From: Chryseosolibacter histidinae
Lineage (GTDB): Bacteria; Bacteroidota; Bacteroidia; Cytophagales; Cyclobacteriaceae
DNA length: 64,000 bases
Reading direction: 5' to 3'
Assembly (NCBI RefSeq): GCF_018598225.1
Contig: NZ_JAHESF010000001.1
Coordinates: forward strand, 310,001-374,000
Shown here: in pieces, positions 1 through 57,640 of the stretch
Numbering within the stretch: the stretch's first letter is position 1
How the letters are laid out: each line of letters begins with the position of its first letter
Translations under genes and position numbers: made by a program
Notes under the pieces: generated by a model
The model's database searches: none
What the model saw: the letters and a program-made list of their open reading frames with translations, nothing else
Told to the model about the DNA's origin: nothing

Positions 1-3000
1 CAGCTTGTTAATCGCCATGAAACCTTACATGCTTCTTTCAGGATCGTCAATGACAAACCGGCCCAATTTATCCATAAGGACTTTACGCTCCCGATAGAAG
101 AATTTCAGTGTACAGAAGACGGGCTCGACTCCATCATCCATCAATTTATCCGGCCTTTTGATCTGAGCCAGGCGCCGTTGTTCAGGGTAGGGCTCGTGCA
201 AACGGCTCAGCAGGTGCATTACCTGATGGTTGATATGCATCACATCATCTCAGACGGTGCGTCTATCGGGTTGCTGATCAACGATTTTATGCTGTTGTAT
301 AACGATGTGCCATTGCTTCCGCTGGAGCTCGACTACAAAGATTATGCGATGTGGCAGCAGAGTGCAGGGTACCAGAATAAGATCGCCCGCCAGAAGGATT
401 TTTGGGTAAAACAGTTTTCGGAGGCCATTGTGCCGCTCGATCTTCCGATAGACTTTGCGAGACCCACTACTACGGAAGGTGGCACGTTTGCATTTGCGCT
501 CAGCGCAGACGAGACAAGGCAGCTGCGGGCCATCGCTGAGAAGGAGGTGGCAACCATTTCGATGATCATACTGTCCGTGCTCAATATCCTGCTGGGAAAG
601 ATGGCCAACCAGGAAGATGTGGTGGTAGGTATGGCGGTGGCCGGACGGGAACAGTTTGAGCTGGAAGGTATGATCGGCATGTTTCCAGTAGTGCTGCCGT
701 TGCGTACCTATCCTAAGGCCGAGCTAAGCTTCCGGGAATTTTTGACCTCGTTGAAAGCTACGTTCCTATCTTCATTCGATAATCAAAGCTATCAGTACGA
801 AGAGCTTGCGAAGGAGCTGAACCTGGAGCGCACCACCGCGAGAAACCCCTGGTTCGATGTGATGTACCTGTATCAGAATTTCGAGAGGTCGTCGCTGGCG
901 ATTCCCGGCGTGGTGGTGACACCTTATAAGGAACAGAACACCGTAGCCTATGAAAAGCTCAACCTGACGGTGATCGAGAACAGGGACCAGTTATGTTTCA
1001 GGCTGGTGTATGCTACAGCCCTCTTCAAAAAAGAAACCATGGAGCGGCTGGCGAAATACTTCCGGCATATCGTCAACGTGGTGATCAGAGACACCGGCGT
1101 CCGCATCGCAGACATTGAAATGACGGAAGGAGATAACAGGGCGTATGTCGCGCATGCCGGCAACAACAGGAAAAGCATCGCACGGGACAAAGGATTTTCA
1201 GCGCTGTTCAGGGACCAGGTCAGCAGAACACCACTGAATATCGCCGTCAGGCATAACGATTCCGCGCTGACCTATGAAGCGTTGAGCCGTGAATCGGTAC
1301 ACCTCGCATCCCGGCTGAAGGCGAGGGGAGTAGCACCTGACAGGAATGTTGCCTTGCTGTTGCCGAGGGGAATTGGCATGCTTACCAGTATTCTCGCGGT
1401 CTTTCATGCGGGCGGCGCCTATGTGCCCGTGGATGTTGACTTTCCCCTTCAACGTATCCAGGAGATCCTCTCGGGCTGCCGGCCACAGGTTGTTATCGTG
1501 TCGGCGGAGACCTTGCACCTCATCGACGGGATCAAAGGCATCCACGAAATGATGGAAGTTATTTGTATCGACCCCCCGGATGAGGCAAACAAAAAGTTAA
1601 TTGAACCCGTGCAGCAACAAGGCGATGACCTCGCTTACATCATTTATACTTCGGGCACCACCGGAAAGCCCAAAGGTGTGATGATCCACCAGCTCGGCAT
1701 GATCAACCACCTGCACGCCATGATCGACATTTTAAAAGTGGACGAAAAGGACGTTATCGCCCAAACCGCTTCACCTTGTTTCGATATATCCGTGTGGCAG
1801 TTCCTGACGGCGTTGGTCACAGGCGCCACCACGTGTATCATTGATAAGGAAAAGATCATGGAGCCGGCCGTGCTGGTGGAAACCCTGCAACGAGAGGGCG
1901 TCACGATATTCCAGGCTGTTCCGTCGTTGCTGGCCACCTTCCTGGATGAGGTCCCCGAAGGCAGCCGTAAGCTGGAAAAACTGCGCTGGATGATTCCAAC
2001 AGGCGAATCGCTGACAGCGCCACTAGCCAAAAAGTGGTATTCATACTATCCGCATATTCCGTTGCTGAACGCCTATGGGCCGGCGGAAGCATCAGACGAT
2101 GTTACCACGTATGTTGTGGCGCCTCCTGAGGAAGGCCAGCTCGCGGTGCCCATCGGAACACCCATTCAGAATATGCAGGTGTACATTGTGAATGACTCGA
2201 TGAAGATCTGCCCGGTGGGTGTGAAAGGAGAAATATGTGTGGCGGGCATCGGTGTTGGCAAGGGATACTGGCGTGATGAAGAAAAAACCAGGAGCGCGTT
2301 TGTATCCAATCCCTTTGTGCAGACCGAAAACGATCCGGACTACGCTACGCTGTATAAGACCGGCGATATCGGCTACTATCTTCCGGATGGAAGCATCATG
2401 TGCTGCGGCCGGAGAGATGATCAGGTCAAGATCAGGGGATACAGGATCGAGCTGAATGAGGTAGAGGGACAGTTGTTGCAGCATGACATGATCCAGGAAG
2501 TGACTGTTCAGGCGAAAGAGTCCGACGGCATCCGGTACCTTGTTGCCTATTACGCGGCGCCGGAAGAGATCGCGCCCGCTGATATTGAAAAATTCCTGGC
2601 AGACCGGCTGCCACAATACATGATCCCGTCTTATTATGTGAGGCTGGCGAAGCTGCCATTGACCCCTAACGGAAAGCTCGACAGGCGGGCGCTACCCGAG
2701 CCCGACATAAAAACCGAGATGCAGTATGTTGCACCTGCCAACGAAATGGAAGAGCGACTGGCCGTTGTATGGTCGTCAGTTTTAAAACTCGATGCCGACA
2801 GGATCGGCGTAGAATCCAGCTTCTTTACCATGGGCGGTCATTCTTTGAGCGCGATCATATTGCTCAACCGGGTTTATAAAGAATTTCAGGTAAAAGTGCT
2901 GCTGAAAGAGTTCTTCATGAAGCCAACCATCCGGTTTACGGCAGAGTACATCGAAACGCATAGGTGGCTGCAAGCGGCGCCTTCTGTGGAAGCTGTGGAT

Positions 3001-3021
3001 GCGACAGAAGTGATCATTTAA
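1..3021 (+). CDS. Nonribosomal peptide synthetase, C-A-T module (5'-partial)
   Basis: The reading frame is open to the left edge, so the N-terminus is missing. The visible part is one complete extension module. The condensation domain begins inside its RHETL motif (about base 13) and carries an intact catalytic HHIISDG (bases 238-258). The adenylation domain runs from about 1190 to 2700, with YTSGTTGKPKG (A3), NAYGPAE (A5), YKTGDIG (A7) and NGKLD (A10 lysine). A carrier domain follows, with the phosphopantetheine serine in GGHSL (Ser codon 2842-2844). Aligning by eye to the PheA pocket gives approximately D-I-W-Q-I-T-A-D-D-K; Asp235 implies an ordinary alpha-amino acid, but I cannot name the substrate. 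No thioesterase follows. It ends 10 bases before the next NRPS gene, so the two are surely co-transcribed. Confidence 0.95.
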   Translation, partial: QLVNRHETLHASFRIVNDKPAQFIHKDFTLPIEEFQCTEDGLDSIIHQFIRPFDLSQAPLFRVGLVQTAQQVHYLMVDMHHIISDGASIGLLINDFMLLYNDVPLLPLELDYKDYAMWQQSAGYQNKIARQKDFWVKQFSEAIVPLDLPIDFARPTTTEGGTFAFALSADETRQLRAIAEKEVATISMIILSVLNILLGKMANQEDVVVGMAVAGREQFELEGMIGMFPVVLPLRTYPKAELSFREFLTSLKATFLSSFDNQSYQYEELAKELNLERTTARNPWFDVMYLYQNFERSSLAIPGVVVTPYKEQNTVAYEKLNLTVIENRDQLCFRLVYATALFKKETMERLAKYFRHIVNVVIRDTGVRIADIEMTEGDNRAYVAHAGNNRKSIARDKGFSALFRDQVSRTPLNIAVRHNDSALTYEALSRESVHLASRLKARGVAPDRNVALLLPRGIGMLTSILAVFHAGGAYVPVDVDFPLQRIQEILSGCRPQVVIVSAETLHLIDGIKGIHEMMEVICIDPPDEANKKLIEPVQQQGDDLAYIIYTSGTTGKPKGVMIHQLGMINHLHAMIDILKVDEKDVIAQTASPCFDISVWQFLTALVTGATTCIIDKEKIMEPAVLVETLQREGVTIFQAVPSLLATFLDEVPEGSRKLEKLRWMIPTGESLTAPLAKKWYSYYPHIPLLNAYGPAEASDDVTTYVVAPPEEGQLAVPIGTPIQNMQVYIVNDSMKICPVGVKGEICVAGIGVGKGYWRDEEKTRSAFVSNPFVQTENDPDYATLYKTGDIGYYLPDGSIMCCGRRDDQVKIRGYRIELNEVEGQLLQHDMIQEVTVQAKESDGIRYLVAYYAAPEEIAPADIEKFLADRLPQYMIPSYYVRLAKLPLTPNGKLDRRALPEPDIKTEMQYVAPANEMEERLAVVWSSVLKLDADRIGVESSFFTMGGHSLSAIILLNRVYKEFQVKVLLKEFFMKPTIRFTAEYIETHRWLQAAPSVEAVDATEVII

Positions 3022-3031
3022 CCGCCCGGCG

Positions 3032-6000
3032 ATGGGTAGCGTAATGCAAGCCAGACCAGAAAAAGAACCGCCGATCAGGCCACGGGAAATATCCGGCAAC
3101 ATGGCAGATGCCAGGGTGATGCGTCCCGTACAATTGCCCAGAGACGTGGTCGGTGCTTCGGTAGGCCAGGGCAGATCGGCACAGGTTTGCACAGTGCTGG
3201 ATGCCGTTGAAACAAACAAGCTGAAGGTCATGGTGCAACAACAGGAAGCGTCTCTGTTCGCAGTGATGTTGGCCTGCTACTCCGTTTTATTAAGCAAGCT
3301 CAGCGGACAGGAAGACATCGTCATGAACATTGCTGCTCCGGGCGATGTGTGCTCCGGTCTTGAAGACACACGTGAATACACCATTCCCCTGGTCAGCGTT
3401 CCGGGCGGAGATCGGCAGTTCAGCGATCTGGTTGCCGAAGTGATGCAGAGCTCCAATGCGTTCCCCGGAGGCCATGATGTGTTTGCGCCACAAGCCAGCG
3501 GAACTACGGCAGGAGGTGAGCAGTTTTCTTCCAATGTCTTTTTTGCAGTGCTGTCCCCGGGATGTTTCAACGCCAACACTTTCCCTGAGCGTTTTCCCCT
3601 CCTGAGCCATACGCATTTTGATCTCGCGCTGGAAGCTGGAGAAAAGTCTGGCGAAATGCACCTGTGCCTGACATACGCTGTTCGCAGCTTCTCACGCGAT
3701 ACGGTAGAGCGATTTGCGGGCTACCTGAAAAGGATCATCTCAGTTGTTACAGCCATTCCGGATATCAGGATCTCGGATATCCGCATCATCGGTGAACAGG
3801 AGATCAACCAGGTTCTGGTCCAGTTCAACGATACTGCACATGACTTTCCCGATGAGTGTGTGATTGCTCTGTTCGAAAAGCAGGTTACAAAAACGCCGGA
3901 TACAGTAGCCATCCTATTTGAAACGCAGCAGATCACCTATGCTGAGCTTAACAGGGAAGCGTGTAAGCTTGCGGCATATCTCCGGCACAAAGGCATGCAA
4001 CCGGACCAGGTAGTGGGTGTGCTGCTGGAGCGATCGGTGGCATACATTGTGGCTGTACTGGCCGTGCTGAAAAACGGTGGCCTCTATCTGCCTTTGGATC
4101 CGGGGCATCCCGAATGGCGGCTTGATTTTATGCTGCGCGATAGCCTTGCCGATTTTCTCATCACTAAGAAAAATATTCTGCAGAACAAGCATGTGGAATG
4201 TTCGGCTACACTGATATGCCTCGACCAGGAGGCGCAGATGATAACAGCTTGCGCCGGTCACATAGAGTTCGCCCCGCATGCGCGCGACATTTATGTTATC
4301 TATACTTCCGGTTCAACGGGGAAACCAAAAGGAGTTCTGGGAAGCCAGAAAGCATTGGTCAACAGGTTGCACTGGGGATGGGATCACTATCCTTACACTC
4401 CGGAAGAAGTATGCTGTCATAAAACCGGTTTTTGCTTTGTAGACCATGTGGTGGAGTTGTTTTCACCCCTGCTCAGCGGTGTGCGCCTGGTAGTGCTCAA
4501 CGATCAGCAGATGACAGACCCGGGAGCGATGCTGGCGCTGCTGGCCCAACATCGTATTGGCAGGATCACACTGGTGCCTTCGCTGCTGCAGTCGCTTATC
4601 AAGGCGAAACGTCACAACAATGTTCAGATGGACTCACTGCGGTATGTTTTCTGCAGTGGCGAGGTTCTTACGTTTTACCTCGCGCAGCAGTTCTACCGGG
4701 AGTTTGGCCGTTCACGCCTGGTGAATATTTACGGCTCAACCGAAGTAGGTGCCGATGTATCATATTGTAACGTTGACCGTTATAATGTAGACGATGTTTT
4801 AAAATACTTCAGGAACACTTCCGGTATCGCCTCCGGGCAGGCCCAGGATGGTGGCATGCGTGGCTTTACCTCGGGGCAGGTAGACGTGGCACGGCTGGCA
4901 AAAAAGTTTCTCAATAGCGAGATCGCCGATTACCCCGTTCCGCTCTCGGAATATTATGCGAAGCTTGACCGTGACGTCATTCCTTATACCATCGATACCT
5001 CATCTCCTGCGTTCATAGGACACATGACCTCCGTTCTCCCGGATTATGTGCATGATCTCAGCAAGCTCATTTCGCGGTTGAACCAAAACCTGGTGAAGAT
5101 CGAGACGTCAAAATCCGTCACCTTCCTCGAAAGAGAAGCCATCGCTATACTGCACCGCGTTTTCTACGCGTTCCCGACTCAGTTCTATGACGAGAATGTT
5201 CAAAAGCTGAACACCAACCTGGGGATCATCACCAGCGGCGGCAGTACGGCAAATATCTCCGCGTTGTTAACCGCGCGAAACAGGGCATTGTATGGGGCAC
5301 GCGCCAGTGAGAACGGGAAACACGGCGCAAGCATCTACACACTGCTGCGTGCGCAGGGATATGAAGACATGGTATTGATCGGATCGGAGCTCATGCATTA
5401 TTCGTTCAGGAAGGCGGTGTCGGTATTGGGATTGGGTACCGACAACATCGTTTATGTGAAGAATGATATATACGGACGGATGAGCATCGCGGATCTTGAA
5501 GAAAAAATTGCTGCTTGCAAGCAACAAAAGCGTTTGATCCTGGCCATCGTTGGCATTGCGGGCTCGACGGAACGTGGGAGCATAGATCCGTTGCCCGAGA
5601 TAGGACGGATCGCAGCGGCCCATCACATCCATTTTCACGTAGACGCGGCATGGGGTGGGGCGCTGATCTTTTCAGAGGTACACCGGCACCTGATCCGGGG
5701 CATTGAGAACGCCGATTCCATCACCTTCTGCGGCCACAAACAATTGTTCCTTCCCCAGGGCATCAGCATCTGCCTGTTCAGGGATCCCTCACAATTGAGC
5801 TACAATTCAACGGTGGCCAATTACCAGGCGAAGCAGGACTCGTATGATACGGGCAGGTTCACCATAGAAGGCTCGAGGCCCGCGTTGTCAATGTGCCTGC
5901 ATGCATCGCTGAGCGTGATCGGAAAAAAAGGATACGCGCTGCTGATCGACAACGGCATTGAACGCGCTGCATCTTTTGCACACCTCATCGGGGCGCAGGA

Positions 6001-6970
6001 TGCTTTTGAGCTGGTGAGCTGCCAGATCAATATTGTGAACTACCGGTATATTCCCTCTGCCATGAGGGATACGCTGCGCAAAGGTGCGTTGACCCCGGCG
6101 ATGAATGCAACGATCAATAAGCTCAACAACGACATACAGGAGAATCAATTCTATCAGGGCAGAACATTCGTCTCCAAGACCATCATCCGGCACGTGGCAC
6201 ATGGCGAAATTGTTGTCTTCCGCGCCGTACTTTCCAATCCGCTGACAACACAGGATGACCTGATCAATGTTTTGAAAGACCAGTTCAGCATCATTGAAGC
6301 GCTTAGCGGTGACCGAAACGAATTCCGTGCGGTGCCTGAGCCGTTCAGGATGGATGACCTGCCGGAGCACGAAAATGCAGGACGAAGGAGCGAGCACCGG
6401 AAAGTATCAATAGGCCGGCCGTTGTACAATACGAAGATCGTGATCGTGGATAGATATGACCGTGTGCAGCCCATCGGTGTTCCCGGTGAAATATGTGTTT
6501 CCGGAGCGGGGCTCGCCAGTGGTTATGCCGGCGATGCTTCCCAGCGCACACACCGGTCGTTTGTGCCCAATCCTTACGATAGCAAGGCGCTGATGTACAG
6601 GACCGGCGACCTCGGCAAATGGATGCCCGACGGAACCATTGAATTTGTCGGGAGAATTGACCGGCAGGTGAAGGTCAACGGCTGCCGCATAGATCCCGAA
6701 GAGATCGAGGATGCACTCTATGCGCATGGCGGTATCGACCACGTTGCCGTCATCGAAAAAGAGAAGGGCACACGCCGGTTCCTGGTGGCATGTTATGTTT
6801 CCGAGGAGCCGATAGACCCTGCCGCGTTGCGTAGCTTCCTCTTGCTACGGCTCCCGGCCTATATGGTGCCCGCTTATTATGTAAGCATGCAAAAACTGCC
6901 CCTGACCTCCAACGGAAAAATAGACAACCAAACCTTACAGGAAGCCAGTGCCGGGCATTCCTTCACTTAA
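3032..6970 (+). CDS. NRPS protein: half C domain plus adenylation domain interrupted by a PanP-like aspartate decarboxylase
   Basis: 1312 residues. Residues about 20-260 match only the C-terminal lobe of a condensation domain; the N-lobe with HHxxxDG is absent. The adenylation domain starts near 268, with IYTSGSTGKPKG (A3, about 423) and NIYGSTE (A5, about 566). It is then broken by about 535 residues of a group II PLP-dependent decarboxylase, and resumes at about 1125 with SIGRP, YRTGDLG (A7), the A8 region and NGKID (A10). Pocket residues by eye are V-D-V-T-F-S-I-A-D-K. Position 235 is Val and 236 is Asp, the pattern I recall for beta-alanine-activating domains (VDxVISxGDK type). The protein stops right after A10 with no carrier domain, so beta-alanine would have to be loaded onto a carrier in trans. 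Domain calls are strong; substrate and cis-supply are inference. Confidence 0.93.
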   Translation: MGSVMQARPEKEPPIRPREISGNMADARVMRPVQLPRDVVGASVGQGRSAQVCTVLDAVETNKLKVMVQQQEASLFAVMLACYSVLLSKLSGQEDIVMNIAAPGDVCSGLEDTREYTIPLVSVPGGDRQFSDLVAEVMQSSNAFPGGHDVFAPQASGTTAGGEQFSSNVFFAVLSPGCFNANTFPERFPLLSHTHFDLALEAGEKSGEMHLCLTYAVRSFSRDTVERFAGYLKRIISVVTAIPDIRISDIRIIGEQEINQVLVQFNDTAHDFPDECVIALFEKQVTKTPDTVAILFETQQITYAELNREACKLAAYLRHKGMQPDQVVGVLLERSVAYIVAVLAVLKNGGLYLPLDPGHPEWRLDFMLRDSLADFLITKKNILQNKHVECSATLICLDQEAQMITACAGHIEFAPHARDIYVIYTSGSTGKPKGVLGSQKALVNRLHWGWDHYPYTPEEVCCHKTGFCFVDHVVELFSPLLSGVRLVVLNDQQMTDPGAMLALLAQHRIGRITLVPSLLQSLIKAKRHNNVQMDSLRYVFCSGEVLTFYLAQQFYREFGRSRLVNIYGSTEVGADVSYCNVDRYNVDDVLKYFRNTSGIASGQAQDGGMRGFTSGQVDVARLAKKFLNSEIADYPVPLSEYYAKLDRDVIPYTIDTSSPAFIGHMTSVLPDYVHDLSKLISRLNQNLVKIETSKSVTFLEREAIAILHRVFYAFPTQFYDENVQKLNTNLGIITSGGSTANISALLTARNRALYGARASENGKHGASIYTLLRAQGYEDMVLIGSELMHYSFRKAVSVLGLGTDNIVYVKNDIYGRMSIADLEEKIAACKQQKRLILAIVGIAGSTERGSIDPLPEIGRIAAAHHIHFHVDAAWGGALIFSEVHRHLIRGIENADSITFCGHKQLFLPQGISICLFRDPSQLSYNSTVANYQAKQDSYDTGRFTIEGSRPALSMCLHASLSVIGKKGYALLIDNGIERAASFAHLIGAQDAFELVSCQINIVNYRYIPSAMRDTLRKGALTPAMNATINKLNNDIQENQFYQGRTFVSKTIIRHVAHGEIVVFRAVLSNPLTTQDDLINVLKDQFSIIEALSGDRNEFRAVPEPFRMDDLPEHENAGRRSEHRKVSIGRPLYNTKIVIVDRYDRVQPIGVPGEICVSGAGLASGYAGDASQRTHRSFVPNPYDSKALMYRTGDLGKWMPDGTIEFVGRIDRQVKVNGCRIDPEEIEDALYAHGGIDHVAVIEKEKGTRRFLVACYVSEEPIDPAALRSFLLLRLPAYMVPAYYVSMQKLPLTSNGKIDNQTLQEASAGHSFT
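4781..6391 (+). other. Embedded PLP decarboxylase domain (PanP-like) inside the adenylation domain
   Basis: This segment is residues about 584-1120 of the preceding protein. It follows the family order from N- to C-terminus: a PAFIGHMTS motif, NQNLVKIETSK, ERE, TSGGSTANISAL (phosphate-binding region), HVDAAWGGA with Asp871 (pyridine-nitrogen contact) and GHKQLFLPQG with Lys903, the expected Schiff-base lysine, then a C-terminal small domain ending near SNPLTTQDDL. These blocks resemble the Vibrio-type PanP aspartate 1-decarboxylase (the TIGR03799-type family, from memory) more than GadB. All catalytic positions are present and the length fits a whole enzyme, so the domain is probably active. 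The borders are by eye, about 10 residues either way. Confidence 0.88.
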
Positions 6971-6980
6971 TACAACTTTT

Positions 6981-8900
6981 ATGAAAAACACATCCATCAT
7001 CATGGGACGATCATTCCCGAACAAAGCGCTCATGCGCACGATCTTGATGCTGCCAGTATGCTGGAGCATGATGCTTCAGGCACAGGAACGTTTCACCGTT
7101 GCAGGCCGGAATATTACCGTCAGCACCTTCAACCGGGAAATTGAAAAGATGCTGGATGAGACCGGCATACCGGCGGTTTCATTGGCAGTGATCGATAACA
7201 ACAAGATCGTTTTTTCCAATGCCTATGGATACAAGAACCTGCCCGAGAAACAGCGTGTCGATAAGAACACAATTTTTGAGGCCGCTTCACTATCTAAGAG
7301 TTTCCTGGTGTACGCCGTGTTCAAACTGGTAGATGAAGGAAAGTTTGATCTTGACAAGCCCATGCACGAGTATATGGACCCGGGGCCGCCCCTGAAGTAT
7401 GATCCACGTCACAAGGCGATCACTCCGAGGATGATCCTCAGCCATACCTCCGGCATCGAGAACTGGCGATGGGAGAACAACAGGGACTCACTCGAGATCT
7501 TGAGCAACCCCGGTGAAAAATTTGTTTATTCCGGTACGGGTTATAACTACATGGCCGAGGCGATCGGGTTGATGCTGGGAGAACCGTATGAGAAATACAT
7601 CGAAAGGATGGTGATCAAACCCTTGAAGCTGCGGCGTTCTTATGTGATGTTCGAAACGCGGGACGGCAAGGAAACACCGTCAAATTTTGCACTCGGCCAC
7701 GATGCGTTTGGTAATCCCCATGACAAATGGAAAAATACGGAAGCAGTGCCTTCCAGCGCAAACATCGTTACCGCTGAGGACTATGCCAGGCTTATCATTG
7801 CCACTTTTGACGGCAAACACCTGTCGGCGAAAAGTATTCGTGACATTCTTCAGCCCATCAGCAAAATGGATAAGGACATGCCTTATTACTACGGTGCCGG
7901 CTTCGAGGTTTTTTATCTGGGGAAGGATACCCTCATCGCGCATAGCGGAAGCAATCCGGGATTCAAGGGACACGTGTTTTATTCCGTTGTCAACAAAAGA
8001 GGTTTTGTGTTTCTGACCAACAGCGAGCGTGGAAAACTGATCACTACCAGGCTGAGCAGGATGACGGCGGGCTTTGACATCGATCACTACTACATACCAT
8101 TTTATCCAGACCAGTATCCGAGCAAAGCCATAGACGTGCTGAAGATCTACCGCGACCAGGGCGCCACCGCGATGTTTCAGACGATAACACAGTGGAAGCA
8201 GGAGGGCAAGCTTGATATAAAAACCCTCAATGAGGTAGCGCGCGTTTTTATCGACCATGACCGGGCCATCTCCTCTAAATTGCTGTACATGGCCGTCAGG
8301 TTGTTTCCGCCATCTGCCGAAACCCATTACCGGTTGGGTGATCTGTACAAGAATGAAACACAGTATGACTCCGCCTTTAAGAATTATACAAAAGCCCGTG
8401 CGCTTGATCCGGCACTGCCCGACATAGACCAGGCGCTGAAGCATTGCAGTGAAATGATGGCGGATGCCAGGCGGCGGGAGGCCCTCATCGTTAGCGTTGT
8501 TCCGAATGAAAGCGCCACCATACAAGCCGAAGACTACAATACAATGAAAGGTATTGCCATGGAGAAAACTGCAGATGCGGGCGGCGGCCAGAACGTAGGT
8601 TTTATAGAAACCGGAGACTGGATGGACTACCGCATCAACGTGCGGGCTGCTGGAACATACGCAGTCTCGTTCCGGGTTGCCAGCTTTAATGGAGGCAGCC
8701 AGATCCAGTTGCGCTCGGCTGATGACATACTGGCCACTGTTGATGTTCCCGCTACCGCCGGATGGCAGACCTGGACAACCCTCACGGCCGATGTTACGTT
8801 GCCCGCCGGAGAGCAGACGTTACGGCTTTTTACCACTAACGGCGGTTTTAATATCAACTGGCTCCGGCTCACCGCATCCGAAGGGGCGAAACCAAAATAG
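6981..8900 (+). CDS. Secreted serine hydrolase (beta-lactamase/PBP family) with TPR and CBM6-like domains
   Basis: 639 residues from the ATG at 6981. An upstream in-frame start at 6948 would overlap the NRPS gene and precede the signal peptide, so it is not preferred. The N-terminus has a hydrophobic signal segment ending in LQAQ, implying export. The class C beta-lactamase-like domain (about 30-370) has S-L-S-K (SxxK), Y-S-G-T-G-Y-N-Y in the YxN region and A-H-S-G in place of KTG. A short TPR-like stretch follows (about 400-500). The C-terminus (about 515-635) looks like a CBM6 carbohydrate-binding module, beginning IQAEDYN and rich in GDW and aromatic residues. It sits within the NRPS operon; a role in trimming or hydrolysing the peptide, or in cell-wall work, is inference. 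Confidence 0.85.
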   Translation: MKNTSIIMGRSFPNKALMRTILMLPVCWSMMLQAQERFTVAGRNITVSTFNREIEKMLDETGIPAVSLAVIDNNKIVFSNAYGYKNLPEKQRVDKNTIFEAASLSKSFLVYAVFKLVDEGKFDLDKPMHEYMDPGPPLKYDPRHKAITPRMILSHTSGIENWRWENNRDSLEILSNPGEKFVYSGTGYNYMAEAIGLMLGEPYEKYIERMVIKPLKLRRSYVMFETRDGKETPSNFALGHDAFGNPHDKWKNTEAVPSSANIVTAEDYARLIIATFDGKHLSAKSIRDILQPISKMDKDMPYYYGAGFEVFYLGKDTLIAHSGSNPGFKGHVFYSVVNKRGFVFLTNSERGKLITTRLSRMTAGFDIDHYYIPFYPDQYPSKAIDVLKIYRDQGATAMFQTITQWKQEGKLDIKTLNEVARVFIDHDRAISSKLLYMAVRLFPPSAETHYRLGDLYKNETQYDSAFKNYTKARALDPALPDIDQALKHCSEMMADARRREALIVSVVPNESATIQAEDYNTMKGIAMEKTADAGGGQNVGFIETGDWMDYRINVRAAGTYAVSFRVASFNGGSQIQLRSADDILATVDVPATAGWQTWTTLTADVTLPAGEQTLRLFTTNGGFNINWLRLTASEGAKPK

Positions 8901-8938: not shown

Positions 8939-9892
8939 ATGAACGAAACAAAAACGATCGAGGCGATCGGGCTGCCGCTGGTGGTGCAGCTCGACGACAT
9001 GGATAAGGACGCATTCATTGCTTACTATCGGAAAAATGAAAACGAGATCACGCGAAAGCTGTCGAAGAGCGGCGCATTGAAGTTTACGGGTGTTACGATA
9101 AACTCCTTGCAGGATTTCCAGCACATCGTTGATTCCATATCCAGCAAGTTTCTGAACTACATCGATGGCAACTCTCCGCGTACGAAGCTGTCGGGCAATG
9201 TATACACCTCTACGGAGTACGATAAAACACAAAAGATAACGATGCACAATGAGCTGTCATACTCGGCGAAGTGGCCCAACAAACTGTTCTTTAGCTGCCT
9301 TCAGCCGGCCGAGAGCGGTGGGGAAACGCTGATCGCAGACAGCCGCGAGATCTACCGGAAGATGAGCCGGTCTATCGTGTCGGAGATCGAGAAGCGGGGA
9401 ATTACCTACATCCGGAACCTGCACGGAGGTATGGGAATGGGGCCTTCCTGGCAGGATACGTTTGAAACCCGCGACAAAGCACAGCTCGAGCAATACTGCA
9501 CATCATACGGAATAGACTTCGAGTGGCGCGACAACGATATGCTTAGACTCAAACAATTCAGCAAGGGTGTGATCGAGCACCGGCAGAGCGGGGAGAAGCT
9601 GTGGTTCAACCAGATCGATCAGTTCCATCCTTGCCACCTGGGAGAAGAGATGTTTGAAACGATCATGATCATGTACGGCGACGAGCAGAACTTTCCCATG
9701 TACGTGACCTACGGCGACGGCAAGGCGATAGACAAGAAGATGGTACAGGAAATACTCGACACCATTGATCAGGTCACCATCTATCCGCCATGGCAGAAGC
9801 ATGAATTGATGATCGTAGACAACGAGCTGGTGTGTCACGGGAGGAACTCATACACCGGAGACCGCCGGGTGCTGGTGGCGATGTCAGAATGA
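8939..9892 (+). CDS. TauD/SyrP-like Fe(II)/2-oxoglutarate-dependent oxygenase
   Basis: 317 residues. The iron-binding motif reads H103-N-E105 in the context MHNELSYS, the HxE variant seen in NRPS-associated amino-acid hydroxylases (SyrP, AsnO and VioC groups) rather than the HxD of TauD. The distal ligand is His300 in CHGRNSYTGDRR, with the downstream arginines that bind 2-oxoglutarate. The motif GGETLIADSR is also family-typical. The family hydroxylates the beta-carbon of free or carrier-bound amino acids, often aspartate or asparagine. Given its neighbours, aspartate beta-hydroxylation is a reasonable guess but not shown by sequence. Its stop overlaps the start of the racemase gene (ATGA), so the two are translationally coupled. 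Confidence 0.88.
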   Translation: MNETKTIEAIGLPLVVQLDDMDKDAFIAYYRKNENEITRKLSKSGALKFTGVTINSLQDFQHIVDSISSKFLNYIDGNSPRTKLSGNVYTSTEYDKTQKITMHNELSYSAKWPNKLFFSCLQPAESGGETLIADSREIYRKMSRSIVSEIEKRGITYIRNLHGGMGMGPSWQDTFETRDKAQLEQYCTSYGIDFEWRDNDMLRLKQFSKGVIEHRQSGEKLWFNQIDQFHPCHLGEEMFETIMIMYGDEQNFPMYVTYGDGKAIDKKMVQEILDTIDQVTIYPPWQKHELMIVDNELVCHGRNSYTGDRRVLVAMSE

Positions 9893-10686
9893 TCTTTAAC
9901 CACCGTGCGATGGACGTTGCCAACGATAACGTGATCGGCATCGTAGGCGGTATGGGGCCTGAAGCGGGAATGGCTTTGTTCAATTCCATACTCACCCATA
10001 CACGCGCTGCCACAGATCAGGAGCACTTGTCGGTGTTGTTGATGTCTTTTCCCCGGCATATCACAGACCGCACATTGTTCCTGCAAGGTGACGAAGAGAT
10101 CAATCCGGCCTATAACGTGAGCGACATGATCTGCAGGCTTGAGTATGCGGGTGCCAGGGTGGTCGGTCTGGCGTGTAATACCGTGCATGTGCCGGAGATC
10201 TTTGATGTTATTGCAGCAGAGCTTCGTAAAAAGAACAGCCAGGTGCGGTTGCTCAATATGCCGGCGGAGACTTGCCGTTATATCAGGCGCCACCATGCGC
10301 AGGTGCACCGTGTAGGACTGATGACAACGAACGGAACGTATCGTTCAGCACTGTATGAAAATCTGCTGCTGGATTTTGGTTTTCATGCCATCGTACCGGA
10401 TGCGATGTTTCAGAACGACGTTGTTCACAGGATGATCTATGACAAGCACTTCGGTATCAAAGCCAACCCGGGACGCATTACGCCTGAAGTAAAATTACGC
10501 GCGGCCGAAGCGATTGAATTTTTCCGGCAGCACCAGGCGGAAGCCATTATCCTCGGATGCACGGAGCTGTCGCTGCTGAAACAGGAATTGAGCCGCGACT
10601 TCGTTATCATCGATTCTACCGAAGCCCTGGCCCTTGCCCTGATCAGGGAAGCTACCGTTGCGCTTGCCCAGGCCCCACAGCTTTGA
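9889..10686 (+). CDS. Aspartate/glutamate racemase family protein
   Basis: 265 residues from the ATG at 9889, which shares ATGA with the upstream stop; a longer in-frame start at 9832 lies wholly inside the oxygenase gene and is rejected. The N-terminus IGIVGGMGPEAG is the family's substrate-binding loop. The two catalytic cysteines are visible in LACNTVH and LGCTELSLL, so both half-reactions should be possible. The family interconverts L- and D-aspartate or glutamate without a cofactor. Beside an NRPS with no visible epimerisation domain, it may supply a D-acidic residue. Substrate choice between Asp, Glu and a broader range is not resolved. Confidence 0.88.
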   Translation: MIFNHRAMDVANDNVIGIVGGMGPEAGMALFNSILTHTRAATDQEHLSVLLMSFPRHITDRTLFLQGDEEINPAYNVSDMICRLEYAGARVVGLACNTVHVPEIFDVIAAELRKKNSQVRLLNMPAETCRYIRRHHAQVHRVGLMTTNGTYRSALYENLLLDFGFHAIVPDAMFQNDVVHRMIYDKHFGIKANPGRITPEVKLRAAEAIEFFRQHQAEAIILGCTELSLLKQELSRDFVIIDSTEALALALIREATVALAQAPQL

Positions 10687-10729
10687 TGTGCGCTATCATT
10701 ATGCTTATTACAACATTTAACTCATCATT

Positions 10730-11695
10730 ATGGATAACTTATCTGTGCTTGTTAAGGAAGAAGTGAATGAGATGGAAAAGACGATCAATGATTTCTTTTC
10801 CATTATTCCGGGAATAGAAAATGCTGCGCCGGCGCCTGCTGTGGATGCGCAGACCCTGAAGGAAGATGTTTTTATCAGGGAGTGGGTTTCCAGGAACAGG
10901 CCATGCCTGATCAAAGGTGCCGTTAAGCACTGGCCCGCCGTGGAAAAATGGCGACATAAGGAATACTGGCTGAGCAAATGCGAGAACTTTGAAGTGAGCG
11001 TTTATCCGCACCAGAATTATATCAACCAGACACTTCACAACAATGGGCATGAGCGCATGCAGTATCACGATGCGATCGAGCGCCTGTTTTCCAACAAAGA
11101 CCATGTGTTCAGCATGCCGGGAGAACAGATCACTGAAAACAACCGGTTCGCCGCGATCCTGAATGACCTCGGCACCTTTACGTTCATGCCTTCTCCAGAC
11201 CCGCCAAGGTGGTACGAAAAAAGACGGTTCTTCTCGTACCGGCGTGCCCACACCGCCTGGCATTACCACGGTGTGGATGAAACCCTCATGTGTCAGGTGA
11301 ACGGAGCCAAACGTGTGGCCTTGTTCTCGCCGTCCATTCCACAAGCGAAGCACGTTACCAATTTTCTGCTCAAAGAAAAGTACCTCGAAGGACAGACCTT
11401 GGACAAAGACCTGGACCTGAAACCCATCATCGCAGACGTGGAAGAAGGTGACGCTTTGTACATTCCTCCATACTGGCATCACGGTGTTGTTCCTAAAGAC
11501 GGAGAGATCGGGTTTACCCTTGCCTTTTGCTGGCCGAGTCCCATTCACATCCTGGGCGATTTTTCCAACTTCTTCGTGCGCGATCTGTACCGCGGAGCCA
11601 TGTGGCCTTTGGGTGTAAAAACATTCCTGCTTCCCTTGCTGGGATGTTACGCAGGGTTCATGCATTATAAAAGAAAGCTGCTCGGTGCGCAATAA
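10730..11695 (+). CDS. Cupin/JmjC-like (Cupin_8) protein
   Basis: 321 residues. It resembles the Cupin_8/FIH-like group: the first strand LIKGAVKHWPA, a metal-site stretch AWHYHGVDETL (His178, His180, Asp183) and a distal site YIPPYWHHGV. In most family members the first motif is HxD; here the acid position is His180, with Asp183-Glu184 three residues on, so the metal ligands may be rearranged. The family contains 2-oxoglutarate oxygenases and hydroxylases, and this copy could oxidise the peptide or a precursor. It lies between the racemase and the exporter in the same operon. Enzymatic activity is therefore possible but not certain. Confidence 0.75.
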   Translation: MDNLSVLVKEEVNEMEKTINDFFSIIPGIENAAPAPAVDAQTLKEDVFIREWVSRNRPCLIKGAVKHWPAVEKWRHKEYWLSKCENFEVSVYPHQNYINQTLHNNGHERMQYHDAIERLFSNKDHVFSMPGEQITENNRFAAILNDLGTFTFMPSPDPPRWYEKRRFFSYRRAHTAWHYHGVDETLMCQVNGAKRVALFSPSIPQAKHVTNFLLKEKYLEGQTLDKDLDLKPIIADVEEGDALYIPPYWHHGVVPKDGEIGFTLAFCWPSPIHILGDFSNFFVRDLYRGAMWPLGVKTFLLPLLGCYAGFMHYKRKLLGAQ

Positions 11696-11738
11696 CAATC
11701 CCTTTCACTCATTGCAGATAAAACATACCCACTCCGTT

Positions 11739-14700
11739 GTGAAGACCCGACGCATTTACGCTTTTATATTTTTGATCCTTGGCATTTTCTGTGTGATGCC
11801 GTGTTCCGTTGCCCAGCAGGTCACGGACGAGGTATTGATGCGCCAGATAGAGAAAGAAGTCAGTCGCCTGATGGAGAAAGGTGACATCCCCGGGCTGAGC
11901 CTTGTGATGATCCGCGACGGCAGGCAGACCATCCGGAACTTTGGTTATGCTGACCTGAGATCGCAGCGAAGGGTGACGGACACCACCTTGTTCGAGCTGG
12001 GCTCCTGCAGCAAAGCTTTTACGTCACTGGCTGTGATGGTGCTGGTACACCAGGGCAAACTGGCGCTGGATGACGACGTGTCGCTGTACATTCCGTGGTT
12101 CAGGGTGTATCACGAATCGGCTCCCGCAAAAATCACCATCCGCAACCTGTTGCACCACACGAGCGGTATCCCATGGAATACCATCTCAGAAATTCCCGAG
12201 GATGACACAGAAGATGCGCTCGAGCGCACCGTTCGAACATTGGAAGGACAGGAGCTGAGCCACCTGCCGGGAGAAAAATTTGAATATGCCACCATCAATT
12301 ATGATGTGCTGGCGCTCATCGTTCAGCGCATTGCGGGAAAACCTTTTGAGACTTTCCTGCAGGAGAACGTGATCGACCGGCTTGAGCTTCGGCATACCAG
12401 CATCGGTTATCCTGTTGACAGCACATTGAAGGCTACCGGCTACAAGATCGGGTTTCTGCAACCGAGAGAATATGTGGCCCCGGTTTTCAAAGGCAACAAC
12501 GCAGCGGGATACGTTTCCTCCAACGCAGCGGATATCGGCCGGTGGTTACGTTTTCAAATGGGCCTTGCCGATCATGAGCTTTATGAGCTGGCCCAGGCAA
12601 CACACCAGCGCGATGAAACGGTGCCACTACACGATATGTCCTCTTACGCAATGGGCTGGGACGTATCGCTGAATGGCAACCGGGAGATCTTTCACAACGG
12701 ACTGAATCCCAACTATACATCCTTTATGGTATTCAGACGGGAGCAAAAGCTGGGCGTTGCCGTGCTGGCGAATGCAAACAGTAACTTTACGTTGGTGATC
12801 GGCGACAAGGTGATGAAGCTGCTGGCAGGCGAGAAGAGCAGCCTTACCAGCGATCCCGGAGACGGAAACGACAGGTTGTTCTCGGTTGCATCGGTGATGG
12901 CAGGCATCTATCTGTTACTCGTTACAGCCTTTGCTTCGCTCATGATCGTCGACATTGTCAAAGGCAGAAGACGGTATGAGCCGTTCACCCTGCGCAAGCT
13001 GAAGAGCCTGGTGCTGCAGCTGGTGGCGTTTCTTCCTTTTCTTGTTGCGATCTATCTCCTGCCCAGGGCATGGGCGGGTTTTGAATGGCAGGCCATCGTA
13101 GTGTGGACCCCGATAAGTTTTCTCACGTTTGTAACACTTTTGCTGATCGCTTTCGGCGCCAGCTATCTCACCTACGCTGTGAGCCTGTTCTTTCCGGAGC
13201 CGAACAAATTTAAACGCATCATTCCCAGGGTATTGCTCACCAGCATTCTTTCAAGCCTGGCCTACATGACCATCATCATACTCATCACCTCTGCGCTGGG
13301 CAGCAGCACACTGCCCGTGTACCTGGTGTTTTATTACGTGTTGTCAGTATCTGTTTACCTCCTGGGCCGCAGGTTTGTCGAAATAAGCCTGATCAGGTTT
13401 ACCATGGAGCTGGTGTACGAGCTGCGCATCAAGCTCATTGACAAGATCTTTTCCACGTCCTATCAAAAGTTCGAGAAGATGGATCGTGGCCGGGTGTATA
13501 CCGCCATGAACAACGACGTGAGTACGGTAGGTGAATCTACCAGCATGTTCGTTGTGTTGATCACACACTGCCTTACCACAGTGGGCGCGTTGCTGTACCT
13601 GGCGTCCATTGCTTTCTGGGCGGCGCTCACTACGGTGCTGCTGATCTCGATACTGGCTACGTTGTATTTCCTGGCGACGCGGAGCACCAATAAATACTAC
13701 GAGCAGGCCCGTGACACCCAAAATGTGTTCATGCGTCTCATCAATGGTATGATCGATGGATTTAAGGAGATAAGCCTCCATCGTCAGAAAAAGCTGGAGT
13801 ATAAAGATGACGTGGCAGCAACAGCTGAAGAATACAGGAGCAAGATCACGGTGGCCAGCGTCCGGTTTGTCAATGCCTCGCTGGTGGGTGAGATCCTGTT
13901 GATCATTACCCTCGGCGCAGTAGCCTTTGCGTTTCCCCGGATCTTTTCGGGCATCGAGGTGTATACCCTGATGAGTTTTGTCATCGTGCTGCTGTACCTG
14001 ATCGGGCCCATCAATACCATCCTCACATCGGTGCCCGGCCTTGTGCGGCTCAGGATCGCCTGGAACAGGATCCAGCAGTTCCTGAGCGATATTCCGGCAA
14101 ACATGGATATTACAAGGCCGCAGCCCATCGCCATGCCACCGGCGGTAGACAGCATCAAAGCACGGGGTGTAAAATTTCAATATAAGAATGGAAGCGAACA
14201 GGATGTGTTTACCGTCGGTCCCATCGACCTGGAGGTGAGAAAAGGAGAGATCCTCTTTATCATCGGTGGTAACGGAAGCGGAAAGACCACCCTGGCCAAG
14301 CTTATCACAGGTCTGTATGAACCTGATGAAGGAGAATTTCTCATCAACAACAAAACCATCAGGTCCGCCCAGCTCGGTGAGTACTTTTCAACCGTGTTCA
14401 GCCCTGCCTTCCTGTTCGAGAAACTGTACAACATAGACCCCGTACAAAAATCGGCAGCGATAGAGAAGTATTTGCAGGTGCTGAACCTTGACAGCAAGGT
14501 AAGGGTAGTGGGTAACCGGTACAGCACCATCGATCTCTCCGGTGGCCAGCGGAAACGGTTGGCGTTGTTGCAATGTTACCTGGAAGAATCGCCCATTTAT
14601 TTGTTCGACGAGTGGGCGGCCGACCAGGACCCTGATTATCGCAATTTCTTTTACCGCACACTTCTCCCTGAAATGAAGGCCATGGGCAAGATCGTCATTG

Positions 14701-14825
14701 CCATCACCCATGACGATCATTACTTCGATGTGGCCGACAAGATCCTGAAAATGAGTCAGGGACAACCGGAGATCTACACGCGGCAGCATGCCCATGCGTC
14801 TCCCGCGGCGGTCATTTTTCCCTAG
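11739..14825 (+). CDS. Serine hydrolase fused to SyrD-type (cyclic peptide export) ABC transporter
   Basis: About 1028 residues from the GTG at 11739, which puts a signal-like hydrophobic segment ending SVAQQ at the N-terminus; the alternative GTG at 11685 adds 18 residues and overlaps the upstream gene by 11 bases. The first half (about 30-370) is a beta-lactamase/PBP-like domain with S-C-S-K and a YxN (YATINY) region. Several membrane helices follow, then a SyrD-like transmembrane domain and an ATPase with GGNGSGKTT (Walker A), LSGGQRKRL (signature) and YLFDEWAADQDP (Walker B and beyond). DEWAADQDP is characteristic of cyclic peptide exporters of the PvdE/SyrD type. It probably exports, and may hydrolyse outside the membrane, the NRPS product. 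Both modules look intact. Confidence 0.88.
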   Translation: MKTRRIYAFIFLILGIFCVMPCSVAQQVTDEVLMRQIEKEVSRLMEKGDIPGLSLVMIRDGRQTIRNFGYADLRSQRRVTDTTLFELGSCSKAFTSLAVMVLVHQGKLALDDDVSLYIPWFRVYHESAPAKITIRNLLHHTSGIPWNTISEIPEDDTEDALERTVRTLEGQELSHLPGEKFEYATINYDVLALIVQRIAGKPFETFLQENVIDRLELRHTSIGYPVDSTLKATGYKIGFLQPREYVAPVFKGNNAAGYVSSNAADIGRWLRFQMGLADHELYELAQATHQRDETVPLHDMSSYAMGWDVSLNGNREIFHNGLNPNYTSFMVFRREQKLGVAVLANANSNFTLVIGDKVMKLLAGEKSSLTSDPGDGNDRLFSVASVMAGIYLLLVTAFASLMIVDIVKGRRRYEPFTLRKLKSLVLQLVAFLPFLVAIYLLPRAWAGFEWQAIVVWTPISFLTFVTLLLIAFGASYLTYAVSLFFPEPNKFKRIIPRVLLTSILSSLAYMTIIILITSALGSSTLPVYLVFYYVLSVSVYLLGRRFVEISLIRFTMELVYELRIKLIDKIFSTSYQKFEKMDRGRVYTAMNNDVSTVGESTSMFVVLITHCLTTVGALLYLASIAFWAALTTVLLISILATLYFLATRSTNKYYEQARDTQNVFMRLINGMIDGFKEISLHRQKKLEYKDDVAATAEEYRSKITVASVRFVNASLVGEILLIITLGAVAFAFPRIFSGIEVYTLMSFVIVLLYLIGPINTILTSVPGLVRLRIAWNRIQQFLSDIPANMDITRPQPIAMPPAVDSIKARGVKFQYKNGSEQDVFTVGPIDLEVRKGEILFIIGGNGSGKTTLAKLITGLYEPDEGEFLINNKTIRSAQLGEYFSTVFSPAFLFEKLYNIDPVQKSAAIEKYLQVLNLDSKVRVVGNRYSTIDLSGGQRKRLALLQCYLEESPIYLFDEWAADQDPDYRNFFYRTLLPEMKAMGKIVIAITHDDHYFDVADKILKMSQGQPEIYTRQHAHASPAAVIFP

Positions 14826-14841
14826 CATAATTGCATACAGT

Positions 14842-16239
14842 ATGAATAACTTTGAAAGTTTTCACCTGGCGGAAAATGCCAGCGTGGTTTCTCCGGCGCT
14901 TCCCGGAAAAAAATCGAAAGAGATCCTGGCGTTCCAGCAGGAAAGAGAAGGCAGTATTGTCTCTTATCCACGGAACATGCCCATCGCCATCAACCGTGCC
15001 AAAGGTGCCGTTATTGAAGATGCCGACGGGAACCTGTTCCTGGATTTTTTCAGCGGGGCCGGTGTGCTGAATGTTGGCCATTGCAATGCCTTTGTGCTGG
15101 AATACGTGAAGGAGCAGCAGGAGAAGCTGGTTCATGCGCTGGATTTTCCTACCGAGAACCGAACGGACCTCGTCAGGAAAATATTTGAGCAGATCCCTGA
15201 AAAAATCCGGGATGAATTCAAGGTGAGCTTTTGCGGCCCTACCGGGTCAGACGCTGTGGAAGCGGCGATCAAGCTGGCCAAGCACAAGACCGGTAGGGAG
15301 GGAGTGATCGCCTTCCACGGCTCCTATCACGGCATGACCTCCGGCGCGCTGTCGGTAACAAGCAACGTAAAGCTGCGCAGCCGCATCAGCTCGCTCGTTC
15401 CCAACATCAGCTTCATACCCTACAGCTACTGCTACCGTTGCCCGTTCAATAAAGAAGCCGCTTCGTGCAAGCTTGATTGCGCTGATTACCTCAGGTATGT
15501 TCTGGAGAACCCGCACTCAGGTTTTGGAAAACCGGCTGCCATCATACTGGAGCCTATCCAGGGCGAGGGGGGAACCGTGATACCCAGGCCGGGTTTTCTT
15601 GAAAAGATCGTGGCCATTGCGCGGGCACATGATATTGTTGTGATCTTCGACGAGATCCAGTGCGGCTTTTTCAGAACCGGAAACTTCTGGGCGTTTGAAG
15701 ATGCCCATACCTTTCCGGATATCATCACCATGTCTAAAGGGCTTGGCGGTATTGGCTTCCCCATCTCAGCTATTATTTACAACAAGTCTGTTGAATCGTG
15801 GGGGCCGGGAGATCACATCGGCACCTTCAGGGGAAATCAGGTAAGCATCGCCGCGGGAAACGGCGCATTTGAGTTTATCAGGAATTTTGACGTGGCGCAG
15901 CATACCATCGAGATGGGTGCGTACCTCATGAACAGGCTGGAACAGCTCAAGGCAACGTTCCCCTGCATCGGCGAGGTCAGAGGCAAAGGACTGATGATCG
16001 GGATCGAATATGTAACGGACAGAACGTCTAAAACGCCCGCGCCCGAGATGGTGAAGAAGATACGGGAGCTCTGTTTCTCCAGAGGCCTGCTGTTTGAAGT
16101 AGGCGGGCATTACAACAATGTCATTCGCTTTCTGCCACCGCTGATCATCAACAAGGTGATCATCAACAATGCGATGGAGATCTTTGAAAGCGCTAACCGC
16201 GAGGTAATGGCCCAGCCGGCCGAAGTTTACCAGGCCTAG
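14842..16239 (+). CDS. Diaminobutyrate--2-oxoglutarate aminotransferase (EctB/Dat-like)
   Basis: 465 residues from the ATG at 14842; the frame extends upstream into the exporter gene, but the family begins near this ATG. It is a class III aminotransferase: GPTGSDAVEAAIK (phosphate-binding region), FHGSYHG, EPIQGEGG, FDEIQCGF (Asp contacting the pyridine nitrogen) and MSKGLGG with Lys299 as the Schiff-base lysine. The GPTGSDAVEAA block and overall length match enzymes that make L-2,4-diaminobutyrate from aspartate semialdehyde and glutamate. In an NRPS operon this usually means the peptide contains Dab or a derivative, although other omega-aminotransferase substrates cannot be excluded. Confidence 0.87.
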   Translation: MNNFESFHLAENASVVSPALPGKKSKEILAFQQEREGSIVSYPRNMPIAINRAKGAVIEDADGNLFLDFFSGAGVLNVGHCNAFVLEYVKEQQEKLVHALDFPTENRTDLVRKIFEQIPEKIRDEFKVSFCGPTGSDAVEAAIKLAKHKTGREGVIAFHGSYHGMTSGALSVTSNVKLRSRISSLVPNISFIPYSYCYRCPFNKEAASCKLDCADYLRYVLENPHSGFGKPAAIILEPIQGEGGTVIPRPGFLEKIVAIARAHDIVVIFDEIQCGFFRTGNFWAFEDAHTFPDIITMSKGLGGIGFPISAIIYNKSVESWGPGDHIGTFRGNQVSIAAGNGAFEFIRNFDVAQHTIEMGAYLMNRLEQLKATFPCIGEVRGKGLMIGIEYVTDRTSKTPAPEMVKKIRELCFSRGLLFEVGGHYNNVIRFLPPLIINKVIINNAMEIFESANREVMAQPAEVYQA

Positions 16240-57283: not shown

Positions 57284-57640
57284 ATGGCGTTCATAGAAAT
57301 CCTCAAATCTAAAATTCACCGCGCCACGGTCACACAGGCTGAATTGAATTATGTCGGCAGCATTACCATCGATGCTGACTTGCTTGAAAAAAGCAATATC
57401 ATTGAACATGAAAAGGTTCACGTGGTCAACATCAATAACGGTGAACGATTTGAGACGTACACCATCAGGGGCGAACGCGGCTCGGGAGTGATTTGCCTGA
57501 ATGGTGCGGCTGCCCGGAAATGTATGGTTGGCGATCTTATTATCATCATCAGTTATATCCATATGGAGCCTGAACAGGCAAAGTCATTTGTGCCCAGGGT
57601 AGTTCACGTCAATGCAAATAATGCGGCAGTAGCATTATAG
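57284..57640 (+). CDS. panD: Aspartate 1-decarboxylase, pyruvoyl type (PanD)
   Basis: 118 residues, the normal size. The proenzyme cleavage site is Gly25-Ser26 in YVGSITID, where Ser becomes the pyruvoyl group; [14 protein letters not shown] before it and [16 protein letters not shown] after it are family signatures. It converts L-aspartate into beta-alanine. No other pantothenate genes are nearby, and it follows the TylF-like gene by 50 bases, so it looks like part of the biosynthetic operon. It is unrelated in fold to the PanP-like decarboxylase in the NRPS. Confidence 0.93.

Follow-up and report, generated by a model that had tools for sequence, protein, structure and literature searches.

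The DNA considered here is a 64-kb window of the Chryseosolibacter histidinae genome (positions 310,001 to 374,000 of contig NZ_JAHESF010000001.1, hereafter C34), which carries part of a large nonribosomal peptide synthetase (NRPS) cluster. Open reading frame 3032-6970 (plus strand) encodes protein P0001, to which all residue numbers refer. P0001 contains an adenylation (A) domain interrupted by an entire pyridoxal phosphate (PLP) decarboxylase related to PanP. Family, catalytic residues, and pocket together make it probable that this insert is a working L-aspartate 1-decarboxylase that makes beta-alanine, and that the surrounding A domain activates beta-alanine.

A single frame, extending 6 codons at most upstream of its ATG, encodes both A-domain parts on either side of a whole foreign catalytic domain. 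Pfam recognizes Condensation (33-260), AMP-binding (281-582), Pyridoxal_deC (648-1001), and AMP-binding_C (1224-1296), and finds no PP-binding match in P0001. P0001 has motifs A3, A5, A7, and A8 as well as the A10 lysine (1296). The insert is bounded by A5 (NIYGSTE, 565) and IGRP (1127), which defines an A5-A6 site. Compared with a complete module (a condensation (C) domain with HHxxxDG, an A domain, and a carrier (T) domain), P0001 lacks half of C and all of T. An earlier note on this DNA had described a full PanP-like PLP decarboxylase beyond A5; the Pfam arrangement, with Pyridoxal_deC flanked by AMP-binding and AMP-binding_C, the NCBIfam match below, and residues Asp871 and Lys903 bear this out. 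That description left unremarked the half C domain, the missing T domain, and the large NRPS cluster around the gene.

The NCBIfam model for PanP, TIGR03799, matches residues 618-1086 (469 residues) at 479 bits (E 1e-143), a score below its equivalog cut-off; the runner-up decarboxylase model, in the best 25 of 116 NCBIfam families, reaches 153 bits. By phmmer, His789 aligns with the His of 'HYS' in human GAD1 and Arg1064 with the Arg of 'FR.V.SNP'. All four catalytic residues (His, Asp, Lys, and Arg) are present in each of the six embedded copies described below; presumably they act as stacking His, Asp, PLP Lys, and carboxylate Arg. The insert is 44.9% identical to a PanP-annotated gene of Gloeocapsopsis. 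Kinship with non-decarboxylating PLP enzymes, which the earlier note had named as a possible refutation, was rejected: Beta_elim_lyase and Aminotran_5 score 28 and 26 bits versus 159 bits for Pyridoxal_deC, and a tree, built without characterized reference enzymes, groups the insert with PanP-like proteins. Pantothenate supply was also rejected as the main role. An ordinary panD is present in all eight genomes searched, with two in the window's own, so the insert is dispensable for pantothenate. The second of these, a pyruvoyl-type PanD gene at window 57284-57640 (plus strand; C34:367293-367625), adjoins genes for transketolase halves, a glycosyltransferase, DUF6734, and a TylF-like methyltransferase; the other is on contig 57.

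An alignment with P0001 as its anchor supplied the pocket codes: nine letters come from the alignment itself, and the tenth (K) is appended, Lys1296 having been located in P0001 only. This procedure yields DFWNIGMVH for Thr, DVWHFSLVD for Ser, DAWTIAAVC for Phe, and DILQLGMIW for Gly, which we take to be the familiar letters for these amino acids; their recovery suggests that the pocket positions are right. Read at residues 470-575, the P0001 pocket is VDVTFSIAD. Other embedded copies have VDV[TL]FS[IV]AD, and that of Pedobacter has VDATFSIAD, for a consensus over all six of VD[VA][TL]FS[IV]AD. Arg and Lys occupy none of the nine variable positions in any copy, and position 331 is Asp, a second Asp. 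The beta-alanine-like letters noted earlier (V235/D236 and S301/A330/D331) are therefore confirmed and kept in six copies, the reference code being the one that we assume for beta-alanine.

Independent support for this interpretation of the pocket comes from other phyla, where PanP-like genes and A domains with [VI]D pockets co-occur. Eight plasmid loci with PanP-like genes, among 10 listed of 377 matching records, were examined with 20 kb on each side. Five contain scorable A domains, and in each of the five at least one has the pocket [VI]D...S..[AG][DN]: Gloeocapsopsis (IDWIISLAN), Nostoc (VDWVISLAN), Paenibacillus polymyxa (VDAVSSIAD), and two Mycetohabitans (VDTVVSFGD and VDTVISFGD in one locus, VDTVISFGD in the other). 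The remaining three offer no A domain to score; in Chroococcidiopsis an A-domain gene is truncated at the end of the examined region. The control comprised eight NRPS loci without a PanP-like gene, among 12 listed of 431 matching records: none of their 47 codes (7 partial, 2 acyl-CoA-ligase-like) begins with [VI]D. A PanP-like gene together with a [VI]D-pocket A domain might thus serve as a practical rule for predicting beta-alanine units. The PanP-like genes of the cyanobacteria, Paenibacillus polymyxa M1, and Mycetohabitans lie outside A domains, in NRPS or polyketide synthase (PKS) neighborhoods.

Embedded copies were found in a few related bacteria, all of one phylum. Among 390 genomes of the window's family, five match the decarboxylase at E 1e-40 or better. 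Three of these matches are inside NRPS frames (the window's own, 1318 aa; Fulvivirga, 3115 aa; and a Cytophagales metagenome-assembled genome (MAG), 1610 aa), and two are stand-alone (frames of 527 and 542 aa). Across 395 genomes of the phylum, the window's own alone passed 1e-80. A scan of 84,980 species, with two short A-domain peptides as sole query (so that copies lacking those peptides would escape), returned 14 loci: five with the insert, three in which an A domain of this type lacks it, and six distant. The five carriers, all Bacteroidota, are Fulvivirga imtechensis AK7, the Cytophagales MAG, an uncultured Aquimarina, Aquimarina sp. AU474, and Pedobacter sp. PF22-3. All five have Pfam matches to Condensation, AMP-binding, Pyridoxal_deC, and PP-binding, and thus complete C-A-T modules. 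The insert site is identical in all six copies. Identity between copies is 57.7-68.0% for the insert and 41.8-55.8% for the N-terminal A part (96.1% and 88.7%, respectively, between the two Aquimarina). In the decarboxylase tree, the six embedded copies form one clade (ultrafast bootstrap 100) versus ten other sequences, both stand-alone PanP-like and more distant; the Paenibacillus sequence, incomplete in one frame, was left out. An assembly artefact as the source of the insert is moot: five other genomes have it, although the two Aquimarina (96% identical) count nearly as one.

The interrupted A domains have uninterrupted sisters. An exact DNA-level search for the peptide FVDHV[AV]E gives 11 sites in the six genomes: six interrupted, one per genome, and five uninterrupted (one in the window's own genome, one in Pedobacter, two in the uncultured Aquimarina, and one in the Cytophagales MAG). 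Fulvivirga and AU474 have no such sister, the interrupted module being the sole bearer of the signature. The five sisters have nearly the same pocket as the interrupted copies, without a decarboxylase of their own.

The AlphaFold model of residues 270-1312 shows the A parts with good confidence, its two halves coming together as a single A domain that encloses the insert. Compared with the APNA A1 structures 4d56, 4d4i, and 4d4g, the A-domain model has a template modeling (TM) score, on target, of 0.90-0.91, with a root-mean-square deviation (rmsd) of 6.5 and an alignment spanning some 1020 columns. The other A domains listed fall below this, 1amu at TM 0.73-0.74 among them.

Several points weigh against a decarboxylase that makes beta-alanine for its own A domain. 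The insert scores 479 bits where the TIGR03799 cut-off is 606, and is therefore counted as a PanP relative, not as PanP itself. The decarboxylase part is modeled weakly, with about half of it under a pLDDT (the predicted local confidence) of 50 in model 1 and a mean of 54 in model 2, probably because few related sequences were supplied; hence the mutual placing of the two active sites cannot be read from the models. (Foldseek places 4rit, CSAD, GAD, and GADL1 among the first matches to this part, at TM scores near 0.3 and rmsd 16-24, and these matches were not used as proof.) The pocket control was assembled without taxon matching, the two Mycetohabitans represent one genus, and the Paenibacillus PanP-like gene, found in two tblastn pieces, may be incomplete. 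No free T domain that could serve P0001 was found in C34:252000-374000 (122 kb): a custom hidden Markov model built from 21 sequences detected 11 T domains, each within another NRPS frame. Finally, the interrupted A domains do not form one clade in the A-domain tree, for which 12 of 20 sequences were kept (8 were dropped when the motif cut failed). One uninterrupted domain of the uncultured Aquimarina (uninterrupted 1) joins the two interrupted Aquimarina domains (support 100), and the interrupted and uninterrupted pairs from the window's genome and Pedobacter (98 and 100, respectively) cluster together (91). To judge from the trees, the insertion likely happened once, after which the insert was lost in places or A parts were exchanged.

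A further point on the same side is a published precedent. Activation before decarboxylation is the main rival explanation, and a serious one: the A domain would adenylate L-aspartate through its beta-carboxylate and load the carrier, and the insert would then remove the alpha-carboxylate to leave beta-alanyl-S-T. This order is reported for AfcQ/AfcK/AfcP, with direct beta-alanine activation excluded; AfcQ activates L-Asp, presumably at the side-chain carboxylate, and decarboxylation by AfcP follows on the carrier (PMC12186527). VinN/VinL/VinO follow the same order with 3-methylaspartate, and the FlvN substrate is Asp (PMC11284099). Embedded methyltransferases probably act on carrier-bound residues as well (PMC8949500). 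Nevertheless, we regard activation first as unlikely here. The Arg modeled to hold the alpha-carboxylate (AfcQ Arg311 and VinN Arg331; PMC12186527) has no Arg or Lys equivalent at the nine variable positions of the six copies, in an alignment that does not contain VinN and AfcQ; the window's copy retains its decarboxylase without any carrier; and the five uninterrupted sisters keep nearly the same pocket with no decarboxylase of their own.

The substrate might instead be a substituted aspartate, such as beta-hydroxyaspartate, yielding isoserine, or 3-methylaspartate. The cluster does contain a TauD-type dioxygenase, a cupin_8 protein, a protein of the Asp/Glu racemase family, and an A domain with the pocket DLTKIGEVG, which we take to be an Asp/Asn-like code; in addition, Gloeocapsopsis, whose PanP is stand-alone, has a gene with an Asp/Asn beta-hydroxylase domain in the same stretch. 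Yet the closest family by profile is PanP, an aspartate 1-decarboxylase, and the dioxygenases can modify a residue handled at another point of the assembly line. A substituted substrate therefore seems very unlikely.

The window's own copy departs from its relatives in what surrounds the interrupted A domain. The cluster at C34:271107-326239, whose NRPS genes start some 39 kb before the window's left edge, matches Pedobacter PF22-3 C23:14906-73364, with the same gene order from a 1082-aa gene (C34:303942) to the aminotransferase. Synteny is looser further left, where the window's genome has one extra A-T-C gene (C34:292805), an NRPS gene of 1641 aa versus 2943 aa in Pedobacter, and a pair of smaller genes whose order is exchanged, with only weak likeness in one case. 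The Pedobacter module, in a 1666-aa frame, shows HHxxxDG around residue 225 and the motif of a carrier around 1606, both absent from P0001. We read this comparison as suggesting that the window's module lost its place on the assembly line and retained the A-decarboxylase part. An assembly artefact is a possible cause of the missing C half and T domain.

The module might also be a decaying remnant, with the A-decarboxylase part itself out of use. The N-terminal half of C and the T domain are missing relative to the Pedobacter counterpart, no free T domain turned up in the 122 kb searched, and the C remnant is strongly diverged (27.1% identity to that of Pedobacter and 28.4% to that of Fulvivirga, versus 44.5% between those two). 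Decay is nonetheless very unlikely, being at odds with 1312 open codons, with intact catalytic residues in both remaining enzymes, and with tree branches that are not longer than those of Pedobacter (0.50 versus 0.64 for the A domain, 0.31 versus 0.47 for the decarboxylase).

The reading that we favor, production of beta-alanine by the insert and its activation by the host A domain, can be put as a sequence of steps. The insert would convert free L-aspartate to beta-alanine, as its family and catalytic residues suggest, and the A domain, to judge from its pocket, would adenylate the product. In the five relatives, the full C-A-T module would load beta-alanine onto its own carrier. P0001, with its A-decarboxylase part intact and its catalytic C half and T domain lost, most likely works off the line, as a cluster-bound source of beta-alanine and perhaps as an activator in trans; the recipient could be the uninterrupted module with the VDATFSIAD pocket in the gene just upstream. 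The earlier note had proposed that the protein makes and activates its own substrate in one polypeptide. The PanP-type family, the conserved pocket, and the plasmid co-occurrence speak for that proposal; with its carrier gone and its C domain halved, the window's copy fits the idea of making and using its own substrate less well than the relatives do. The active sites of group II PLP decarboxylases are formed between two subunits, and the insert should therefore render P0001 dimeric. A fuller version, in which P0001 represents a new class of interrupted A domain whose insert supplies its host by passing beta-alanine between sites within a decarboxylase-made dimer, and the window's lineage has become an off-line, carrier-free beta-alanine synthase and activator serving the neighboring module in trans, is conceivable but doubtful.

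Table 1. Features of P0001 and neighboring cluster genes (window coordinates)
Feature	Position	Strand	Remarks
NRPS-derived P0001: half C, A (N-terminal part), PanP-like decarboxylase, A (C-terminal part), no T	3032..6970	+	1312 aa, no internal stop
Condensation domain, C-terminal half, residues 33-260; HHxxxDG half absent	3128..3811	+	Pfam profile 209-454/456
A domain, N-terminal part through motif A5, residues 278-585	3863..4786	+	
Codons of nine variable pocket positions V470 D471 V474 T513 F540 S542 I566 A574 D575	4439..4756	+	
Embedded PanP-like PLP decarboxylase, residues 618-1086; His789, Asp871, Lys903, Arg1064	4883..6289	+	
A domain, C-terminal part, A6-A10; catalytic Lys1296	6383..6949	+	
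Upstream NRPS gene, 1925 aa, C34:307244-313021; in window, C-A(DIWQITADD)-T module	1..3021	+	
Beta-lactamase-fold / TPR / CBM6 protein, next cluster gene	6948..8900	+	Pedobacter counterpart 48.6%
TauD-type dioxygenase, Asp/Glu racemase family, cupin_8, beta-lactamase-ABC cyclic-peptide exporter, diaminobutyrate-type aminotransferase	8939..16239	+	Pfam/NCBIfam
Stand-alone condensation domain, 531 aa	16272..17867	+	

Other features of the cluster deserve mention (Table 1). The first A domain of the upstream NRPS gene (C34:307955-309559, left of the window) is the uninterrupted one with the pocket VDATFSIAD. The five genes from the dioxygenase to the aminotransferase have Pedobacter PF22-3 counterparts in identical order. 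Two beta-lactamase-fold fusions, one with TPR and CBM6 (6948-8900) and one with a cyclic-peptide ABC exporter (11685-14825, plus strand), may perform release or export steps; both have Pedobacter counterparts. In the stand-alone C domain, HHVNCDA replaces HHxxxDG, and the protein is 24.6% identical to the first part of the 1666-aa Pedobacter module. Left of the window, the cluster holds a second interrupted A domain (C34:295988-300913), with an insert of the MupA/Atu3671 type of luciferase-like monooxygenase (TIGR04020, 486 bits). The related A-T-C genes at C34:292805-295975 and 303942-307190 share an unusual pocket, DARHLSLMI, which also occurs in Fulvivirga, the uncultured Aquimarina, and the Cytophagales MAG.

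How does P0001 compare with known systems? A decarboxylase inside an A domain is not described among the matches listed in the open-licence full-text literature, a scope outside which subscription papers and preprints fall. PanP itself shares with the insert the long profile match and the catalytic residues; the insert differs in lying inside an A domain, in its sub-cut-off score, and in belonging to a separate clade of six embedded copies. In AfcQ/AfcP, VinN/VinO, and FlvN, an adenylating enzyme and a PLP decarboxylase likewise cooperate to turn (3-methyl)aspartate into a carrier-bound beta-amino acid. There, however, the enzymes are separate proteins, the adenylating enzyme takes aspartate, and the decarboxylase works on the carrier; their pocket Arg, compared without direct alignment, has no counterpart at the P0001 code positions. 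The system of PMC8795117 also uses an NRPS substrate made by a PLP decarboxylase, but there a separate protein converts tryptophan to tryptamine. The same account describes engineered constructs with an embedded oxidase as dimers and natural IndC as a monomer.

With six natural copies, one of them carrier-free, it can be tested directly whether activation or decarboxylation comes first. If our reading is true, the module would offer a two-in-one unit, already assembled, for introducing beta-alanine into designed peptides, and A5-A6 would be a new site at which an A domain accommodates an inserted domain of roughly 500 residues. Like other interrupted A domains, P0001 holds a second enzyme within one A domain and retains both A parts. 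The inserts given in the available text of PMC8097286 and PMC8949500 comprise methyltransferases, ketoreductases or reductases, oxidases, and monooxygenases; most sit at A8-A9, others at A2-A3 or A4-A5. A PLP decarboxylase at A5-A6 is outside those lists in both class and site, and we file P0001 as an interrupted A domain that is novel on both counts. The inserts in those lists tailor a residue through methylation, oxidation, or reduction; one that makes the building block itself would, if confirmed, follow a different logic.

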